DNA from: an uncultured bacterium
GTDB lineage: Bacteria; Verrucomicrobiota; Kiritimatiellia; UBA8416; CAMZLY01
Assembly (NCBI GenBank): GCA_947311825.1
Contig: CAMZLY010000033.1
Location: 1-33,706 of the forward strand
DNA length: 33,706 bases
Reading direction: 5' to 3'
Shown: positions 19,032-33,643 of the stretch, piece after piece
Position numbering within the stretch: position 1 is the first letter of the stretch
Layout of the letters: each line of letters starts with the position of its first letter
Notes under the pieces: model-generated
Seen by the model: only the letters and a program-made list of their open reading frames with translations
The model's database searches: none
Told to the model about the DNA's origin: nothing
Position numbers and translations under genes: made by a program

Positions 19032-22000
19032 TTATAAATCACTAGGTGATGCTTCTTTTATTTCACCGCCGCCGCCGCCACCGCCACCGCCACCACCACC
19101 GCTTGGTTTTGTTTTCTTTTCTTTTTTAGTAGCAATCCCGTCTATAGTAGTTCTTTTTTCTGTTGTTTTAAGAACCTTATCTTTGTCTTTTTTGTCAGTC
19201 TCTTCTTTTGTGCTTTCTTCACCGCAACCGGCTCCCACACCACGTCCGCAAAGACAAATTTTATATGGAATCCTAATCACGAACATATCTTGGTTGGATT
19301 TTGTGGTGACGAGACGAAAGCCTCGGAAGTTGTCTGAGAAGTGTGGAGGAACATGAAAGCGTTGACTTAATGGTACGGATCCTGAAATCCAAGAACCACC
19401 GTAACAGGCACGCGATTTTAGAGATGAGTTTTTTCCTGGATCAACAAGCCACTCTGATATATTTCCGCTAGTATCATAGATACCGTAATGGTTTTCACTA
19501 GCTTGTGCATGGTGTAATGCGTTGCTATATTCAATGCCATCATAAAATCCTATGGGTGTTGTCTCGTAAATGGGATTTCCGCTATAATCAAGGAAGTTTG
19601 CATCAGAATCTTTGATAGAAGTACGACCAAATGCATATGGTAAATTTGTTTCTCCGTTCCAAGCGGACGCTTTATAAAATTCATTATATGGATTTGCCCA
19701 TGAGTTTGTAGCTTCGTAATTTGCCAATGCCGCAAAAATCCAGCTATCGTTATTTGTCATTATGTTGAGAGGAAGTTTTTTACCGAGGTGATTATTAATC
19801 CAGTTTTCTTGTTCTTCTTTTGTGAACTTTCCTTTTTTCCATTCTTCTTTAGAAACAGTTACCGGAGCCCAGTCTAGTTTATTGGTTCCTTCACTATAGC
19901 TAAGGTCATAAGTGGTGGCACCATCTTTTAATGTTAACCAGTTACAAAATTTTGCTTTTCCCCTATCTGTAACACCTTTTATGGGGATTGAATGGAAATC
20001 TATAAAATTATCTGTTTTTGTTGTTCTTATAGAGTATCGCATTCCTACAGGTTTTGTTTGATCATAAATAAGCAGGCTATCGTAAATATTGAAAAGCATG
20101 TCCTTGTTTTGAGTTTTCTCGGGGTTAAACCAAACGCTTCCAATTGAATCATAGTACATATTAGTACCACGAGGTTCGTTAGGTTTGCTTTCTGCATCAT
20201 TTAGAAATCTTATAAATTGATCGTTTGATACTGCAAAGTCGCCGGTAGATATTTCTGGTGGAGTTTCTGAATTATCCATAGGAATACGGTATCCTTTATA
20301 TCTTAACCAGTCTTGGCGTTCTGTATTTGTGAAATTTCCTCGCAGCCAATTTGTGAGAGAACAAGTTGTTGGACGCCAGTCCCAGGTGTTTGTTCCTTCA
20401 TGGAAGCAGCGTTCTTCCTTGCCGCGTCCAGTATCAATGGTTAGCCAGTTGCAATATTTTAGTGAACCATACCAAGAAACATTGACTACCGGATGATTTG
20501 AGTATGATTCACCGACCTCGGGGACTTTAGGTGTTACAGAGTATCGTTCACCAATCTGACCTTTTTCATTATATTTTATTCGGCTACGATAAGCGATAAA
20601 CATTTCGTCTTTTTCTTCATCCATTGCTGGGTTAAACCAGACATTACCAAGTTTATCAAAATACATATTAGCACCACGCGCATTATTTGTATTGGCTTGT
20701 GCATCATTCAAAAAACGGACATATTCAGCATTGCTAACTTCAGTTTCTGAAATATAGAAGTTGTAGTTTGGTCCATTTGGTTGTCCGCCTGCAGAAACTA
20801 TTCTAAGTTTTGGATTGGAGTGACTTTCTGGAAGTATCCGCCCTAGAATAGAGTCATATTGTCCACCGCTATATGATTTTTGTATAGCTTTGGATGTTTG
20901 TAAGTTTGTGGATGATGTGGTTCCTGCAAAGTGTGCACTCCTAGCTCCATCAACATTTATTGAATAAATTGAGTCGTCGCCATCACCTCCATAATATGAT
21001 GAAAAATTAAGAGCTTGACCAGACGGAGAAAAGCGTGCAACAAAACCATCTCCATCGACATCGCCACCAGAATATTTATCTTGTAGTGGAGTAACTAAAG
21101 GTAGGTTGTCAGAGGTTGTTGATCCTGCTAAAAATGAATCCCCCGTAGAATCTGAATCAATGGCAAACCCGCGGTCATCTCCGTTACCACCAAAATATGA
21201 TGAATATACCGCCTTAGATCCATCAGGCAGTAATTTAGTGATAAAAGCATCCCAATCACCGCCACCATAAGCTTTTTGTAAAGCATTACTCGTTATATAG
21301 AAGTCACCAGATGATGTTTCTCCTGCTAGATAAATATTACCGGCTGAATCTACACTAACAGCATTTATATGATCATCATTATTTCCTCCAATATAGGATA
21401 AGAATCCAATACCGTTGCCGCCATTAGGCAGTCTTGCGACAAAGCCATCCCATTTACCTCCGTTAAATCTGGGCGAGAGAGCGTTAACAACACCGAGGTC
21501 AGTAGATGATGTTTCTCCGCCAACAATAAGATTATGGTTGTAATCAATTGCTATGGCATTAATGGTATCATCGCCACCACCACCAAGGTAGGTAGAGTAA
21601 TCTGTGGTAAGGTTTTGATGATTTATCCGGACTATATAACCATCCCATCCACCACCACGATGGCGTTGTTGGAATCCGTTAAGGATAGGAACATCACCGG
21701 ATGATGTTTCACCTGCTAAATAGATGTTAGTAGATGAATCAAGAGCTATGCTGTAAAATCTATCGTCATCGCTACCTCCGAAAGTGGATGAGTATAAAAT
21801 ATTTGTTCCTGCAGGACCTAAGATTGTAAGAAAACCATCCCATGAGTCATTCATAGTAGTGGACTCTATTGAATTCGTTGTAGGAAAATCTTTTGATAAT
21901 GTTTCACCGCAGATATAGGCGTTACCGGCATCATCTGCGGCAATTGCAAAGGCACGGTCTGTTGATTGACCACCTATAAAGGATGTATAAATAGGTTTAG

Positions 22001-23384
22001 AGTCGGCAATACGAAATTTTGTGACAAATATATCAACATTATTACGTTGTTTTGGCATATCGGGATCATTTTGTCCAAAAAGAGGAGATGATGTTGCTCC
22101 TGTCACATAAGCAAAGCCGTTGTTATCAACGGTGATTCCGTAAGCACGGTCAAAGCCGGTGCCGCCTAAATATGAGGCATAGTCAAGCTTTGGGCTTATG
22201 ATTAAAGGTTTTTGTTGGTCGTAATCCGGTATATCAAAGCTGACTTTATCAGCGTCAAGAAGGTAATTAACGTCAATAGGAACTGGAACCCCTTTATTAA
22301 CCTGATATGCTCGTGGTGCATGTTGCACTACCCTTCCGCCCTCTAAGTTCATAACTAGGTTTCCTGTACTGTCGAGGCTTGAGCCGTTGATACCACTAGC
22401 GACAAAGTTTATATTTTTTGGATCTGCACCAGGCCAGATAACATAGACAAATTCCAGGTGGTCTTGGTTTCCATAGCATGTAAGATCAATACCTGGATAG
22501 ACATCTAAATATTCAACACTCGCATTGCCAGTTAGGCTGGGTAGCAGGCTTTTTGGATTACCTGTGGTGAAATCAGTTGTACGATTAACCTTCTTGTTTT
22601 GGGCAGCCTCATTATATTCAGGTGCAATTCTCTCTTTTTTAATTTTATTTCCACCTGCAAGAGTTTCGTGCCAATATCGAAAGTTATCAGCATTATAAAT
22701 TGAGTTAGTCTTATATTTATCTCTGGCATAAGTGTTTTCAGGAATTTGTCCAGCGGTACTTCCTTGTTGACTGCCAATCATATCAAAGCAGACATTTACT
22801 TCTGATTTGAGGTTACAGGCATCTATTGATTCAGTATCACTTGGATTATAGACAATATTGGTACCCTGCGGGATATTAATTTCTTCACGCCGCATATTGA
22901 GACATATTCTACCAGGATTAAGCTGGATATTGAAGCCTGCACCTGTAGCAGAAAAATCAAACTCATGACATCCGTTTTTTTTGTTACAAGTTTCATTAAA
23001 CGTTAGCGGCATATTATTAAAGGCATTTATAGCCTCACCTTTATTCTTTGCAACGGGTTCTTTTTGTTGAGGTGGCTCCGTTCCGTCTACAGGCTTGGAG
23101 TTCGGTATTTTTGGCTGATATTTTCGTTCGCGACCGCTTGCGGATCCACGCATAGGTTTTCGTGGCGAGGCAGCGAAGTTCATGGTTCTAACCTGCTTTT
23201 CAGGTGTGGATTCGGCCACAGACAAAATTGGCATAATTTGAGAAGATGAATCTAGTGGTACTGGTTTGCTGCTTGCATCTTCTAGTAAATTATCAAAGAA
23301 AATCCAAGCAAGAACAACACCGGCAACTAACATGGCACCCATAGCTGTAACTAAAACTGCAAAAAGTTTATTACTGTTTTTCAT
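19032..23384 (-). CDS. Giant envelope protein: SBBP beta-propeller plus one and a half FGE-sulfatase-like domains
   Basis: Function unknown; 1450 residues. A membrane helix or uncleaved signal (about 7-30) and a Lys/Pro linker lead to a region (about 125-395) like the domain usually found before SBBP propellers (YLDVYPGIDLTCYG, then APRAYQV). From about 400 there are seven repeats of the form Y[LIF]GG...DD...I..D..GN.Y..G.TSS, enough for one seven-bladed propeller. Next comes a half copy (about 865-1040) of a formylglycine-enzyme/C-type-lectin-like domain, then a fuller copy (about 1045-1370) ending in GNISEWLVDP, CYGGSW and RGFRLV. Catalytic cysteines of true formylglycine enzymes are not evident. 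A Cys-rich patch (CLCGRGVGAGCG) and a lysine-rich tail with 12 glycines close the protein. No ribosome-binding site is visible. Probably a binding or adhesion protein facing outward. Confidence 0.85.
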   Translation of the reverse strand: MKNSNKLFAVLVTAMGAMLVAGVVLAWIFFDNLLEDASSKPVPLDSSSQIMPILSVAESTPEKQVRTMNFAASPRKPMRGSASGRERKYQPKIPNSKPVDGTEPPQQKEPVAKNKGEAINAFNNMPLTFNETCNKKNGCHEFDFSATGAGFNIQLNPGRICLNMRREEINIPQGTNIVYNPSDTESIDACNLKSEVNVCFDMIGSQQGSTAGQIPENTYARDKYKTNSIYNADNFRYWHETLAGGNKIKKERIAPEYNEAAQNKKVNRTTDFTTGNPKSLLPSLTGNASVEYLDVYPGIDLTCYGNQDHLEFVYVIWPGADPKNINFVASGINGSSLDSTGNLVMNLEGGRVVQHAPRAYQVNKGVPVPIDVNYLLDADKVSFDIPDYDQQKPLIISPKLDYASYLGGTGFDRAYGITVDNNGFAYVTGATSSPLFGQNDPDMPKQRNNVDIFVTKFRIADSKPIYTSFIGGQSTDRAFAIAADDAGNAYICGETLSKDFPTTNSIESTTMNDSWDGFLTILGPAGTNILYSSTFGGSDDDRFYSIALDSSTNIYLAGETSSGDVPILNGFQQRHRGGGWDGYIVRINHQNLTTDYSTYLGGGGDDTINAIAIDYNHNLIVGGETSSTDLGVVNALSPRFNGGKWDGFVARLPNGGNGIGFLSYIGGNNDDHINAVSVDSAGNIYLAGETSSGDFYITSNALQKAYGGGDWDAFITKLLPDGSKAVYSSYFGGNGDDRGFAIDSDSTGDSFLAGSTTSDNLPLVTPLQDKYSGGDVDGDGFVARFSPSGQALNFSSYYGGDGDDSIYSINVDGARSAHFAGTTSSTNLQTSKAIQKSYSGGQYDSILGRILPESHSNPKLRIVSAGGQPNGPNYNFYISETEVSNAEYVRFLNDAQANTNNARGANMYFDKLGNVWFNPAMDEEKDEMFIAYRSRIKYNEKGQIGERYSVTPKVPEVGESYSNHPVVNVSWYGSLKYCNWLTIDTGRGKEERCFHEGTNTWDWRPTTCSLTNWLRGNFTNTERQDWLRYKGYRIPMDNSETPPEISTGDFAVSNDQFIRFLNDAESKPNEPRGTNMYYDSIGSVWFNPEKTQNKDMLFNIYDSLLIYDQTKPVGMRYSIRTTKTDNFIDFHSIPIKGVTDRGKAKFCNWLTLKDGATTYDLSYSEGTNKLDWAPVTVSKEEWKKGKFTKEEQENWINNHLGKKLPLNIMTNNDSWIFAALANYEATNSWANPYNEFYKASAWNGETNLPYAFGRTSIKDSDANFLDYSGNPIYETTPIGFYDGIEYSNALHHAQASENHYGIYDTSGNISEWLVDPGKNSSLKSRACYGGSWISGSVPLSQRFHVPPHFSDNFRGFRLVTTKSNQDMFVIRIPYKICLCGRGVGAGCGEESTKEETDKKDKDKVLKTTEKRTTIDGIATKKEKKTKPSGGGGGGGGGGGGEIKEASPSDL
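19065..19100 (-). repeat. Trinucleotide tract encoding 12 glycines
   Basis: Twelve successive glycine codons (GGC or GGT) lie near the 3' end of the 1450-residue gene. Read on the plus strand this is a run of GCC and ACC triplets. The tract is a likely site of in-frame length change through slippage. Confidence 0.9.
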
Positions 23385-29336: not shown

Positions 29337-30338
29337 TTAGAGTGCGCCGAAGAAGATGCTGGTGAAGGTTACGACTGGTGAGGTTTCTCGGTAGTCGTCT
29401 AGTACTTCCATTGCTTCGCTAATAATACCGCTAAGTTGATTGTAGAGTTCATCGTCTGTTAGCATTTTTCCTAAGAGTCCATCGCCATCTTTTAGGTGCT
29501 TGGTTACAGTTTTTAGTGATGCCATGGTGCTGGATAGATCGTTGTAAAGCGTGTCATCTTCAGAAAGGAGATGTCCGAGTGTTCCTTTGCCGGATTCTAA
29601 GCGTCTGGTAATGGTTTTTAGGGAGTTTAGGCTGGCTTGTAGGTCGTTGTACATGGTGTCGTCTTCAGAGAGCAACTTTCCTATGGTGCCTTTGCCAGAT
29701 TCTAGGCGGTCGGTAAGTTTGCGTAATGATGTCATACTGGCTGATAAATCGTTATACATAGTGTTGTCATCGGATAATAGTTTACCAACGAAGCCTTGAC
29801 CATGATTAATTCTTTCAGTTACTTGGTATAGGTTGTCGGCGGCTTTTCCTAGATTAGCAATAGCATCACCGTCTACTAGACTTGATTTAAGGGTATTTAT
29901 TACTTCTCCGGCATCGGCCATTATATCATGAGGTGTTAAGCCTATAAAAACTGTTTTTGGTGGTATTTTCTCACTGGAGGCAGATCCGGTGTCAATTTCC
30001 AGTTGGCGACCACCAAGAATAGATGTTTGCGCAATGGAAATTTTGTATCCTTTGTGTAGGATAAGTTCTTCGTTAAGTGTGCCTGTTACTAGCACTCCAT
30101 TAGCGGTTAGTTTAATATCAGTTACTTTGCCGGCTGTCATGCCGCGTACAACGATACTGTCGCCATTTCTGATTCCCATTACTTTTTCAAATGAAATAGT
30201 TATGGGGTATTCTTTTTTAAATATTTTATTACTTGAAAGTATGATGGTGAAGTATGCTAATCCGAGTAGGATCATTACCATAAAAACGCCAACTATAGCT
30301 TCCATTGTGAGCTCGCGGGCAACGCAGTCTTTTCTCAT
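29337..30338 (-). CDS. mlaD: MCE/MlaD-family substrate-binding protein of a lipid ABC transporter
   Basis: The periplasmic, membrane-anchored lipid-binding subunit that works with MlaE and MlaF to move phospholipids between inner and outer membranes. From ATG 30338 it is 333 residues: one membrane helix (about 13-35), an MCE domain (about 40-120, with VMGIRNGDSIVVRGMTAGKV and SILGGRQLEIDTGS), then a C-terminal region with a 35-residue motif repeated nearly four times (LESGKGTIGKLLSEDDTMYN type). The start is set by AAAGGAAA just upstream; an ATG six codons earlier would overlap mlaF. It is the last gene of mlaE-mlaF-mlaD, two bases after the mlaF stop. No mlaB, mlaC or mlaA is in the window. 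Confidence 0.93.
   Translation of the reverse strand: MRKDCVARELTMEAIVGVFMVMILLGLAYFTIILSSNKIFKKEYPITISFEKVMGIRNGDSIVVRGMTAGKVTDIKLTANGVLVTGTLNEELILHKGYKISIAQTSILGGRQLEIDTGSASSEKIPPKTVFIGLTPHDIMADAGEVINTLKSSLVDGDAIANLGKAADNLYQVTERINHGQGFVGKLLSDDNTMYNDLSASMTSLRKLTDRLESGKGTIGKLLSEDDTMYNDLQASLNSLKTITRRLESGKGTLGHLLSEDDTLYNDLSSTMASLKTVTKHLKDGDGLLGKMLTDDELYNQLSGIISEAMEVLDDYRETSPVVTFTSIFFGAL
29400..29792 (-). repeat. 105-bp repeats encoding the 35-residue MlaD motif
   Basis: Units start (minus strand) at 29792, 29687 and 29582, with a shorter fourth from 29477. Each encodes [LHK]LLS[ED]D[DN]T[ML]YNDL, an S-rich helix, then R.LESGKG or a close variant. Similar GKGT[IL]GKLL repeats are known in other MCE proteins, where they probably form the helical or coiled stalk. 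Confidence 0.85.
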
Positions 30339-30340
30339 TG

Positions 30341-31102
30341 TTATTTCCTTTCCCAAGCGCCTCGGCGCGTTATATATTGTGCAGCAAGAAATTCTTTTAC
30401 TTCTTGATCTGTAGAGTTGATGAAATCTTCAGGTGTTGCTAATTCTACGATATCACCATGATATAGCATGGCAATTCTTGTGCCGATTGAAAGAGCACTA
30501 TGCAGATCGTGGGTTACAACAATGCTGGTTCCGTTCATTTCGGCTCGTAAAGAAACAATAAGCTTATCTATATGACGTGATGTTACTGGGTCTAGTCCGG
30601 AGGTCGGTTCGTCGTAAAGAATTATTTCTGGAGATTCTATGATTGCTCTGGCTAGTCCTGCACGTTTAATCATACCGCCGGATATATTTGCAGGTAGTTT
30701 TTCTGTATCATTTTCCAGACCTACCATTTTAAGGGTATCGTGAACTTTGTCCATGATTGTACAGTCGTCTAAGTCGGTATGTTCTCTTAGTGGTAATGCA
30801 ACATTTTCGGCAATAGTCATCCATGCTAGTAATGCTCCGCCTTGGAACAGGTAGCCGAATTTCCGACGGATTAAGGTTAGTTCATTGCCTGCGGCTGTGC
30901 TTACGTTATCATTACCTACCATGACATTACCTTTGTCGGGGGTCATAAGCCTTACCATGTGTTTTAATGATACGCTTTTGCCTGCACCGGACGGACCGAC
31001 TATGACAAAGACATCACCTTTTTTGATATCAAAACTGACATCATTAAGGATGACTTTGCCGCCAAGTGTTTTGGATACATTCTGGAAACTAACAGCGTTC
31101 AA
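30341..31102 (-). CDS. mlaF: Mla-type lipid ABC transporter ATP-binding protein
   Basis: The cytoplasmic ATPase of the MlaFED complex. The 253 residues show Walker A GPSGAGKS (about 36-43), the Q-loop FQGGALLAWMT, the ABC signature ISGGMIKRAGLARAI, Walker B ILYDEPTSGLDP and the switch histidine in VVTHDLHSAL. The start codon is TTG, overlapping the mlaE stop as TTGA, with GAGG about eight bases upstream inside the end of mlaE, a sign of tight translational coupling. It is between mlaE and mlaD in one operon. Confidence 0.94.
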   Translation of the reverse strand: MNAVSFQNVSKTLGGKVILNDVSFDIKKGDVFVIVGPSGAGKSVSLKHMVRLMTPDKGNVMVGNDNVSTAAGNELTLIRRKFGYLFQGGALLAWMTIAENVALPLREHTDLDDCTIMDKVHDTLKMVGLENDTEKLPANISGGMIKRAGLARAIIESPEIILYDEPTSGLDPVTSRHIDKLIVSLRAEMNGTSIVVTHDLHSALSIGTRIAMLYHGDIVELATPEDFINSTDQEVKEFLAAQYITRRGAWERK

Positions 31103-31908
31103 TAGAATAACCTCGTTATAAAATAGCCCGAAATAAGAATTAGTAGAAATGATGTGATAACAGATTGTCTGGTTCCCAGACCAACCCCGACCGCACCTTG
31201 CGTGGTATCAAATCCTTGTTTACATGCTACGATAGTGATGATGATACCAAAGATGAAGGCTTTTAGAAGTCCTACATAGAGATCTTTTGTTTCAGCATAC
31301 ATGGTGGCATTCTGCATATATTTTACCCACGGCACGCCGAGCTGAGTTATTCCGACAATCCCGCCGCCGAGGATTCCTATGATGCTGGTGTAGAATGCTA
31401 GTAACGGAGTCATAATCATCATGGCTACTAATCGCGGCATTACTAAAAATCGTACAGGGTCGATCCCCATAAGTTCTAGAGCTGCGATTTCTTCTGATAT
31501 GGTCATGGTTCCGATTTGTGCGGCAATGGATGAACCAACGGCGGCGGCTAGAATTAAGCCGGTCATGAATGGGCCCATTTCTCTAAGCATAGATACCATG
31601 ACGGCGGTTCCGATATTGACTTCTTGATTAAATTCACGAAGAGCGATGCCGGTTTGTAGGGCAAGAATCATGCCGGTAAAGAATGCAACCACTGTTATTA
31701 CGCCGAGACTTCTGATGCCGGAAGCAAACATTTGGATGACGATTTCTCGCTGTGCTCGCTTGGTAAGGGCGTAGCGTATATTGATAATAGCAAGAATCAA
31801 CAGGATTACTGCTTGTCCAGTCCTGCGCAATGAGAATAGGACTGTTCTCCCCATACGCCCAACAGTGTTTACTGATGGCGGAAAATGTTCTGGTTCACGT
31901 GTTAGCAT
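31099..31908 (-). CDS. mlaE: Mla-type lipid ABC transporter permease
   Basis: The membrane subunit of the MlaFED lipid transporter. The 269 residues include a basic N-terminal amphipathic region, then about five membrane segments. The family signature is MLREMGPFMTGLILAAAVGS followed by SIAAQIGTM and EEIAALELMGIDPVRFLVMP, the coupling-helix region that docks on MlaF. AAGGAT lies five bases before the ATG. It is first in the operon; the 163 bases upstream hold three REP-like hairpins, and any promoter must lie among or beyond them. Confidence 0.94.
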   Translation of the reverse strand: MLTREPEHFPPSVNTVGRMGRTVLFSLRRTGQAVILLILAIINIRYALTKRAQREIVIQMFASGIRSLGVITVVAFFTGMILALQTGIALREFNQEVNIGTAVMVSMLREMGPFMTGLILAAAVGSSIAAQIGTMTISEEIAALELMGIDPVRFLVMPRLVAMMIMTPLLAFYTSIIGILGGGIVGITQLGVPWVKYMQNATMYAETKDLYVGLLKAFIFGIIITIVACKQGFDTTQGAVGVGLGTRQSVITSFLLILISGYFITRLFY

Positions 31909-31950: not shown

Positions 31951-31975
31951 ATCGGCTCACAGAGCCGACACTACA
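31951..31975 (-). repeat. REP-like hairpin, copy C
   Basis: The stem TCGGCTC (31952-31958) pairs with GAGCCGA (31962-31968) across ACA, followed by CACTACA, the reverse complement of the TGTAGTG leader. Inverted relative to copies A and D. Confidence 0.75.
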
Positions 31976-31998
31976 ACTCACATTCTTGCACAAAACTT

Positions 31999-32046: not shown

Positions 32047-32067
32047 ACTCGCAGAGCCGACACTACA
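32047..32067 (-). repeat. REP-like hairpin, copy E (one arm decayed)
   Basis: GAGCCGACACTACA matches the right arm and leader of copy C exactly, but the left arm keeps only CTC. It lies a few bases from the stop codon at 32072. Confidence 0.6.
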
Positions 32068-32071
32068 TTAT

Positions 32072-33643
32072 TTAATTTATATTTTTACCATATTTGAATT
32101 TGATGAAGTATAGCAGTTTGATTTGTTTTTGCAAACCTTCTCTTTTGTAACCGCAGAGTCCGTATAGAATATTCCATTTACAAGAATCATTATCTTCTGA
32201 TATTTGTTTATTGCTTGAGTATAGGGGGAATAGTCTGAGATCTTTATTGCCGTCGGTGTCTCGTCTCCATCGGAATAGTCCCCAGAGAATAGTGTCTTCT
32301 TTTGTGTCATTTACCTTGTCATGGCTATAAATTGTCCAAAGTCTGCCGTAGTTTCGTTCTACATTACCAGTTGAACGGAAAGGCCATAATGATAGAACTC
32401 CTAAGTGGCTTGCGTTGTTTTCTCGACGGTAGTTCATGATGGGCCAAAGTTTAAGGCTTCTAGCTATTGCTTTATCTGTTTCTCCCCATTCTTGTCTGTT
32501 CTTTGTTTTTCCCTGTTCTGCGTAGCGGTATTTTGCTTCGTTTTGGTAAAATGGCAGAACTAAGAGTCGCTTGGCGTAATATTCGCGACGGTAGAGCTTT
32601 TTGCGGGATATAATAGGCCATGCGGCAAACCATTTTTTTTCTATTTCTCTGTTTCTGTATCCCCACAAAGGCCATATATATAATTTTTTCTCTTGAGGCC
32701 CAGATACATAGCGAATAAAAGGCCAAGGGCACATTCCTTCTTTGTATTCTTGTCTTCTATGTTGCCCTTTTGAAAAGCGGAAGAATGGTGGTATTATCAT
32801 TAATGATCTGGAATGCTCGCCAACTTTTGCACGACCATAAATGGGGAATAAGATATAAGCATATCCTTCGAAACCGGGAGCTTTATAGGTTGTATGGTTC
32901 CAAAATGGCCATAGTACATATCTTTTTGTCCATTGATTTAGTTGATCTTTTTTTGAATAGCCATAAAAGGGAAATACGCCGCCACGCTGAACTTTCTTGC
33001 CGGTAGTCTTGGAAAATATGGGCCAGAGATACGTTTTTGTTTTTACGTCTTTAACTTGATGGGTAAAGAAAAGAGGAAATAAGATAAATGATACTTTGTC
33101 TTGTCCGAGTATTTCGTAGATGGTTCCGCCAAAAGGAAAAAAAGCGAAGTAGTTTTTGTCATTAACGCTACGCCCTCCGTAGATAAGAGGAAATATTGAG
33201 TAGCGGTATCGAGATTGGGGGTCGTTAATATCGAAGTTCATGCCGTAAGCAAGTAGGAAACGCCAGTAGGATTGTTCATGATAAGTTTTATGCATGCCAA
33301 TAGGCCATAGATATTCAATAAGGATGCGGTCGTCTAGCTCTGATTTGCTACGGCGGTAGAAAGGGTGTATGGCGACAACGGAGTTACCGTTGGTACTTTT
33401 TCTGGATTCGTAAAACGGGCCAATGGCCGTTTTGTATTGGTTTGATTCGATATCGGTGCCTGTATAGAGAACTGGGCCGGCATCGATATTGGGGGTGTAT
33501 ATGTTTGCTGATGTACTGGATACTAACAGTGATAAAGCTAGTATTAACATGGATAAAAGGGATGGAGGGGATTGTCGCTCTACGGAAAAGAGGTTGAAGA
33601 TGGATGGAGGGGATTGTCGCTCTACTGAAAAGAGGTTGAACAT
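32072..33643 (-). CDS. Secreted or outer-membrane protein with repeated [LF]WP[FIL] segments, function unknown
   Basis: Not a family I can name. After a hydrophobic signal-like stretch (MLILALSLLVSSTSA, about residues 32-46) come roughly 12-15 segments of 20-30 residues. Each centres on an aromatic-proline core such as YLWPI, LFPLF, VFPFYGY, VLWPFW, ILFPIYG, YIWPLWGY, LKLWPI and LSLWPF, followed by a basic or polar turn. Alternating aromatic strands and charged turns suggest a beta-barrel or beta-propeller. The start is uncertain: ATG 33643 gives 523 residues but places a 14-residue tandem duplication before the signal peptide; ATG 33550 would begin exactly at the signal peptide. Neither has a ribosome-binding site. 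Three REP-like hairpins follow its stop. Confidence 0.65.
   Translation of the reverse strand: MFNLFSVERQSPPSIFNLFSVERQSPPSLLSMLILALSLLVSSTSANIYTPNIDAGPVLYTGTDIESNQYKTAIGPFYESRKSTNGNSVVAIHPFYRRSKSELDDRILIEYLWPIGMHKTYHEQSYWRFLLAYGMNFDINDPQSRYRYSIFPLIYGGRSVNDKNYFAFFPFGGTIYEILGQDKVSFILFPLFFTHQVKDVKTKTYLWPIFSKTTGKKVQRGGVFPFYGYSKKDQLNQWTKRYVLWPFWNHTTYKAPGFEGYAYILFPIYGRAKVGEHSRSLMIIPPFFRFSKGQHRRQEYKEGMCPWPFIRYVSGPQEKKLYIWPLWGYRNREIEKKWFAAWPIISRKKLYRREYYAKRLLVLPFYQNEAKYRYAEQGKTKNRQEWGETDKAIARSLKLWPIMNYRRENNASHLGVLSLWPFRSTGNVERNYGRLWTIYSHDKVNDTKEDTILWGLFRWRRDTDGNKDLRLFPLYSSNKQISEDNDSCKWNILYGLCGYKREGLQKQIKLLYFIKFKYGKNIN
33561..33640 (-). repeat. 42-bp tandem duplication at the start of the [LF]WP[FIL] gene
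   Basis: A 38-base match starting GATGGAGGGGATTGTCGCTC recurs with period 42 (33561 and 33603). The copies differ at one base, synonymous if the region is translated (FNLFSVERQSPPS twice). A partial, decayed GAGGGGAT relative follows toward the window end, which also has a run of eight G. It may be intergenic repeat rather than true coding sequence. Confidence 0.8.

Follow-up and report, generated by a model that had tools for sequence, protein, structure and literature searches.

An open reading frame of 492 aa is found on the minus strand of the window (the whole stretch of DNA analysed, 33,706 nt), with its ATG at 33550 and its stop at 32072. The product is termed here the WP-ribbon protein, a name coined in the present analysis. 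Genes of an Mla-type transporter follow it on the same strand, and the features of the locus are as follows.

32072–33550, minus strand: WP-ribbon protein gene, 492 aa, with about 20 hairpin repeats carrying [FW]P[FIL] turns (from sequence, relatives and model)
33506–33550, minus strand: predicted signal peptide, residues 1–15, MLILALSLLVSSTSA (from sequence; cleavage site judged by eye)
32090–33469, minus strand: repeat region, residues 28–487, 45 predicted strands, aromatic-proline turns alternating with charged turns
31099–31908, minus strand: MlaE permease gene, the next gene downstream of the WP-ribbon gene (PF02405, E = 8.5e-68; TIGR00056, 213.7 bits, cut-off 212.2)
30341–31102, minus strand: MlaF-like ABC ATPase gene (PF00005; PRK11831.1, an MlaF model, E = 6.1e-52, below cut-off)
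29337–30356, minus strand: long MlaD (MCE) gene, 339 aa (PF02470 at residues 49–124)

MlaE, MlaF-like ATPase and MlaD genes are found together in the window and in relatives, which meets the criterion for an Mla/MCE locus. A first-pass annotation, made from the letters of the window alone, had named Mla neighbours and a signal peptide. The neighbours are confirmed by the MlaE, MlaF-like and MlaD domain matches, and a signal-peptide-like start is visible in the WP-ribbon sequence. The window MlaD displays one MCE domain followed by a repetitive region, expected to be helical (there is no model of it), and ends in TFTSIFFGAL. Hydrophobic MlaD C-terminal tails resembling TFTSIFFGAF are present in the 25 relatives listed.

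The WP-ribbon open frame extends upstream of the ATG through a 42-bp tandem repeat (33564–33643), which lies just 5′ of the start codon, keeps the reading frame open and contains two exact copies of a 20-base core. This core, near the contig end, has only two copies genome-wide at ≤2 mismatches. Another short repeat, TTGTAGTGTCGGCTCTG, is found in three copies in the window at ≤1 mismatch (127–143, 31960–31976 and 32052–32068), two of the three being situated between the WP-ribbon gene and mlaE.

The aromatic-proline repeat and its sequence family

The first-pass annotation described [LF]WP[FIL] segments that recur every 20–30 residues along nearly the whole mature chain with charged turns between them. 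The repetition stands, and the strict form of the motif, [LF]WP[FIL], occurs only 5 times. Beyond the first 15 residues, the remaining 477 aa contain 14 instances of the relaxed form [FW]P[FIL], versus a mean of 0.53 and a maximum of 5 in 20,000 shuffles of the sequence. The repeat is thus genuine, its excess lying far outside what chance would give. Its period is shorter than described: aligned prolines are spaced 17–22 residues apart, except for three larger intervals (37, 38 and 52), at least one of which contains a degenerate copy of the repeat (W423-G424). The repeats cover residues 28–487, and coevolution places a turn at each charged linker.

A repeat profile was built from an alignment of 77 members, which share 25–40% identity with the window protein. 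Thirteen prolines are invariant and five more are conserved at ≥90%. The consensus of the proline-aligned unit, which is about 20 residues long, is polar - F - [AV] - L - [WF] - P - [LFI] - [YFW] - [GS] - polar, and its proline is 99% conserved (18 units, 77 sequences, gaps excluded).

The WP-ribbon protein gives no Pfam or NCBIfam match at E ≤ 10, and PDB sequences show no match to the protein and none to the profile. A Pfam scan of the 77 members at E ≤ 1 yields seven unrelated families, each hit by one member (best E = 5.3e-4), and MORN is not one of the seven. As far as these searches reach, the repeat defines a protein family that has no name in the Pfam and NCBIfam versions used. The earlier statement that no named domain has this pattern is thus upheld, and the known-family match that would have refuted it was not found. 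Open-access literature searches showed no published description of the gene among the papers listed.

The NCBIfam scan of the 77 members at E ≤ 0.01 gave a single match, that of L104 (a record titled Nitrospirota) to NF047486 (LA_1737_Cterm), which is weak at 23 bits versus a cut-off of 60. The window protein itself does not match NF047486, and only 1 of 57 genomes of its class does, again below cut-off. No paper on LA_1737_Cterm was found in an open-access literature search; LA_1737 is presumably a Leptospira-style locus name. The sub-threshold match is a hint that the repeat may reach into the LA_1737 family and the spirochaetes.

Predicted fold and coevolving turns

The repeats had been suggested to form a beta fold, a predicted disordered chain being the outcome that would count against this. 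AlphaFold2, run with 77 sequences of the family, does not predict disorder. It gives an all-beta meander (pLDDT 93.7, pTM 0.84) with 45 strands, mostly of 5–7 residues, in beta-hairpin units of about 20 residues. A separate model of residues 107–310 (pLDDT 96.3, pTM 0.80) shows strands closely similar to those of the full model. Of 19 conserved positions inspected, 18 are prolines between predicted strands. At the 19th (column 403) ≥90% of alignment A1 has a proline and the window protein does not; the position falls there in a small helix.

Mean-field DCA on 178 WP-ribbon sequences (Neff 162) gives a mean z of 0.84 for neighbouring strands versus 0.10 for distant strands. Coupling is seen across proline turns (0.74, n = 21) and across charged turns (0.93, n = 23). 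Centred on the proline, the hairpin score reaches 1.02; it is 0.92 at a shift of +9 and 0.81 at −10, and falls to 0.11–0.28 at shifts of 2 to 6. The analysis thereby places a turn at every aromatic-proline and another at every charged linker. An alternative of uninterrupted 16-residue strands with a proline kink at mid-strand, which would make a 22-strand barrel, was considered and rejected, because the coevolution signal peaks on the hairpin diagonal centred on the proline (1.02 versus 0.26 for off-diagonal pairs at similar separations). The AlphaFold2 model and the DCA share part of their sequences, so their support is not fully independent. As modelled, the chain would run as a single, unbroken antiparallel meander through about 45 short strands, curved, its path (straight, spiral or ring) being undetermined. 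The reading of an undescribed beta-repeat therefore holds, resting on the excess of the motif, the absence of a covering family, the AlphaFold2 model and the coevolving turns.

Structural searches show likenesses of topology. In its long antiparallel meander of short strands the model resembles the single-layer sheets of the CPAP G-box/TCP10, MORN and OspA. The best rows for the fragment are those of the CPAP G-box, at Z 11.7 (148 residues, rmsd 11.8 Å), and of MORN1, at Z 10.7 (about 10 Å). The large rmsd (about 10–12 Å), the low sequence identity and the lack of a MORN Pfam match set the WP-ribbon protein apart from the G-box and MORN proteins, and we know of no aromatic-proline edge in G-box, MORN or OspA sheets. 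Since the topology resembles known single-layer sheets, novelty appears to lie in the family and in its edge chemistry. Foldseek TM for the fragment (residues 107–310) is ≤0.35 among the matches listed. Beta-propellers (LRP2, WD40 proteins) form the top Foldseek rows for the whole model and were rejected, as their TM is about 0.1. Matches to apoB100 (Z 7.5–10, rmsd 3.7 to 18.9 Å) were not taken as kinship.

Linkage to mlaE and distribution

A scan of genome contigs confirmed 110 stretches, and the best 80 of the 110 were kept, giving 79 distinct loci. In 76 of these mlaE lies directly after the WP-ribbon gene on the same strand, with a median gap of 22 bases between profile matches. In the remaining three (L090, L103, L107) the contig ends 1–6 bases after the WP-ribbon match. 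All of mlaE, mlaF-like and mlaD are present in 70/79 loci, and seven others are cut by contig ends. L049 and L100 have mlaE following, with mlaF and mlaD not found in the stretch despite room. The genomes taken as theirs (G024 and G027) show MlaD matches on contigs other than that of the ribbon gene. The best other same-strand neighbour cluster, which we take to be ornithine carbamoyltransferase-like, is found at 22 of the 79 loci and a phosphoglucosamine mutase-like one at 20 (antisense frames excluded).

The order in L101 and L105 is mlaF-like - ribbon - mlaE - mlaD. With mlaF-like just upstream and mlaE and mlaD just downstream, the ribbon gene here stands inside the operon. Of 16 full-length copies picked in other classes and in divergent families, 14 keep the usual order, and mlaE is the next gene in all 20 chosen loci of the Planctomycetota-labelled phylum (that of G316, the genome of L109). 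This conservation across phyla is beyond what a reading of the single sequence of the window could reveal.

Twenty further loci were chosen from divergent families specifically to seek exceptions. Seven have mlaE adjoining, 12 lack it although 1 kb or more was available, and in one the stretch leaves only 110 bases. These last 13 belong to families f39 (8), f41 (4) and f72 (1); linked copies (L262, L263, L272) occur in f39 and f41 too. Copies without adjoining mlaE are seen at L264–L271 and L278–L281, and also at L150, L152 and L009. Genomes with an unlinked ribbon gene keep MlaE elsewhere, e.g. G128, G230 and G262. Linkage is therefore very strong overall, with losses in some lineages.

The WP-ribbon gene is single-copy in its own genome. 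It is found in 50 of the 57 class genomes (its own included), in 35 of the 36 that are ≥90% complete and ≤5% contaminated, and, by profile search, in 92 of 97 sampled genomes of the class. The same search matches 147 of 288 genomes of the phylum. Strong copies (E below 1e-20) are present in 127 and weak ones in 20, those examined being long repeat proteins; the 55 matching genomes outside the class consist of 35 strong and 20 weak. Universality across the phylum is excluded, since only 127/288 genomes have a strong match. MlaE is present in 267 of the 288, thus many Verrucomicrobiota have MlaE without a WP-ribbon gene. For the 21 genomes without MlaE, no strong copy is found in the 20 listed, and G104 has a weak match. 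In the phylum of G316, 99 of 196 genomes match at E ≤ 0.001.

The records of the 79 loci are mostly titled Kiritimatiellae, Kiritimatiellia, Lentisphaerae, Verrucomicrobia, Pontiella or PVC group. Single records are titled Poribacteria (L101), Nitrospirota (L104), Abyssobacteria (L105), Desulfuromonadaceae (L108), Planctomycetota (L109) and Neomarinimicrobiota (L063), though titles of MAG records may be wrong. The gene is also present in the cultured Pontiella sulfatireligans F21 (L094).

L153, L154, L155 and L156 are long proteins (811–1292 aa) of the WP-ribbon type of repeat with no Pfam family. They display a signal peptide or lipobox by eye, with no mla genes in the fetched stretch. These paralogs indicate that the repeat is used in other contexts too.

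Proposed place of the WP-ribbon protein in the Mla pathway

MlaD domains occur in 55 of the 57 class genomes, and the two without (G021, G056) are also without the ribbon gene. MlaA (PF04333) is found in 8/57 and MlaC (PF05494) in 7/57, and both are absent from the window's genome. The ribbon gene is not a simple replacement for MlaA/MlaC, since seven of the eight genomes with MlaA also carry it. In one genome (G002) both types occur: contig C24 has a short MlaD (168-aa frame) together with MlaA, MlaC and MlaE, and contig C40 a long MlaD (358-aa frame) together with the ribbon gene.

In a 2023 survey (PMC10665443), MlaABC is placed mostly in Proteobacteria and the MlaD barrel is given as completely absent in the PVC group; for barrel-less MlaD it is speculated that the hexamer makes a small barrel or that unidentified proteins help barrel folding. 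According to the same survey, Veillonella parvula has a 10-stranded barrel fused to MlaD at its C-terminus (PMC10665443). That barrel and the WP-ribbon protein are alike as beta elements proposed for the outer-membrane end of a system with MlaEFD only, and differ in that the WP-ribbon protein is encoded by a separate gene, has about 45 short strands and occurs in the PVC group, for which the barrel is reported missing.

Around the repeat proline, positions −4 to +2 (the proline itself excluded) are 64–99% hydrophobic, and farther out the figure is ≤40%. Hydrophobic residues do not alternate between inward and outward positions here, as −4 to −1, +1 and +2 are all hydrophobic. Both strand faces are hydrophobic near the proline tip, and mostly polar and charged near the opposite edge. 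The ribbon is amphipathic edge to edge, not face to face. This suggests that the tip edge either packs on itself or faces the MlaD needle, lipid tails or a membrane.

Export is inferred as well. A simple, crude signal rule applied to 175 distinct members gives 19 lipobox-like, 114 SPI-like and 42 without a clear call. The lipobox-like members have A, V or M after the cysteine, which would fit a periplasm-facing membrane anchor. The envelope location suggested in the first-pass annotation remains an inference from signal peptides and lipoboxes and has not been shown.

The edge-to-edge amphipathicity, together with the lipoboxes and signal peptides, leads to the proposal that the WP-ribbon protein is a dedicated, exported fourth component of a long-MlaD Mla/MCE transporter, acting on the periplasmic or outer-membrane side. 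We consider this probable for the Kiritimatiellota-type Verrucomicrobiota, the Planctomycetota and some other phyla. No experiment, proteomics or complex prediction stands behind it. That the protein belongs to the Mla pathway appears highly probable, while its physical membership in the transporter, including a complex with MlaD, is inferred only from linkage and co-occurrence. For a function at the outer-membrane or periplasmic end the balance is only slightly favourable, and direct guiding of lipid, a mechanism that is inferred, remains a doubtful possibility.

As proposed, the protein would be exported by its signal peptide (with a lipobox in a minority of relatives) and would fold into one antiparallel meander with the [FW]P[FIL] tip row on one edge and the charged turns on the other. 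It would be sited on the outward side of MlaEFD, a position that other systems fill with MlaA/MlaC or a fused MlaD barrel. There the hydrophobic tip edge might touch the acyl chains of lipids or the outer membrane itself, and phospholipid could be received or guided on its way between this membrane and the MlaD tunnel. Lipid contact and the direction of transport are both inferred.

In this role the protein would be comparable to E. coli MlaA and MlaC, also extra-cytoplasmic partners of MlaEFD in a lipid pathway. It is unlike them in lacking PF04333 and PF05494 domains (no Pfam match at E ≤ 10), and MlaA and MlaC are not known to be built from hairpin repeats. Chloroplast TGD4 and the AsmA/TamB/LptA bridges resemble the proposal in being proteins of beta sheet through which lipids move from one membrane to another; bridges of the AsmA/TamB/LptA type differ in their longer strands and face-lined groove. 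TGD4 and AsmA-type proteins were not among the structural matches listed, which does not imply their exclusion.

Three other readings were weighed. The protein could serve as a scaffold or stalk in the periplasm, holding the long MlaD needle or setting the distance between the two membranes, with no lipid contact. Its topological relatives include the extended sheets of MORN and CPAP G-box proteins, and about 45 strands, at a strand spacing of 4.8 Å, would give a contour near 210 Å if straight. We regard this as unlikely, as it leaves a conserved tip edge that is hydrophobic on both faces unexplained unless the edge binds MlaD.

A barrel in the outer membrane, partnering MlaEFD like the C-terminal barrel of Veillonella MlaD and with strands that cross the membrane, is quite unlikely. 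The chain does end in an aromatic-rich strand (LYFIKFK), and the fragment aligns with whole porins, e.g. OmpF (155 residues at 5.2 Å) and OmpU (152 at 4.6 Å). Several porin rows give 4.6–5.4 Å over 152–155 residues, and others are worse at 7.4 and 17.1 Å. However, strands of about 6 residues are short for crossing a membrane, and the hydrophobic residues around the proline do not alternate as described above. DCA shows no coupling of the first and last strands in the 178 sequences (Neff 162), although the data are few. A lipobox is present in 19/175 members, and lipoboxes are unusual for outer-membrane barrels.

Very unlikely is an envelope assembly or quality-control factor merely co-transcribed with mlaEFD, as might be read from the unlinked copies in f39 and f41 and the long repeat paralogs without mla next door, against which stand the linkage across several phyla, including the position within the operon, and the absence of strong copies from the 20 MlaE-less genomes listed.

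With the WP-ribbon protein taken as the outward fourth component, the transporter is of a known kind, and the component, its repeat and its edge chemistry are new as far as searched. The ribbon gene becomes a concrete candidate for the missing outer end of the lipid route to the outer membrane in bacteria with MlaEFD but without MlaA, MlaC or an MlaD barrel. This candidacy rests on the adjacency to mlaE in almost all of the class and a large part of a second phylum, and the occurrence in cultured P. sulfatireligans F21 makes the question of the missing outer end testable. A further speculation, rather unlikely to hold, is that the edge-amphipathic beta-ribbon is a new class of lipid-handling structure, in which about 20 tips would form a hydrophobic rail or tube from the MlaD needle tip to the outer membrane and so supply the missing outer end of the barrel-less Mla systems of Planctomycetota/Verrucomicrobiota.

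Two other genes were observed. The window's genome carries a second MCE-domain gene away from the mla operon (G000:C198:2236-2535). In the window, positions 19032–23384 hold a 1450-aa gene that displays DUF7948, SBBP beta-propeller repeats and sulfatase-modifying-factor-like domains.
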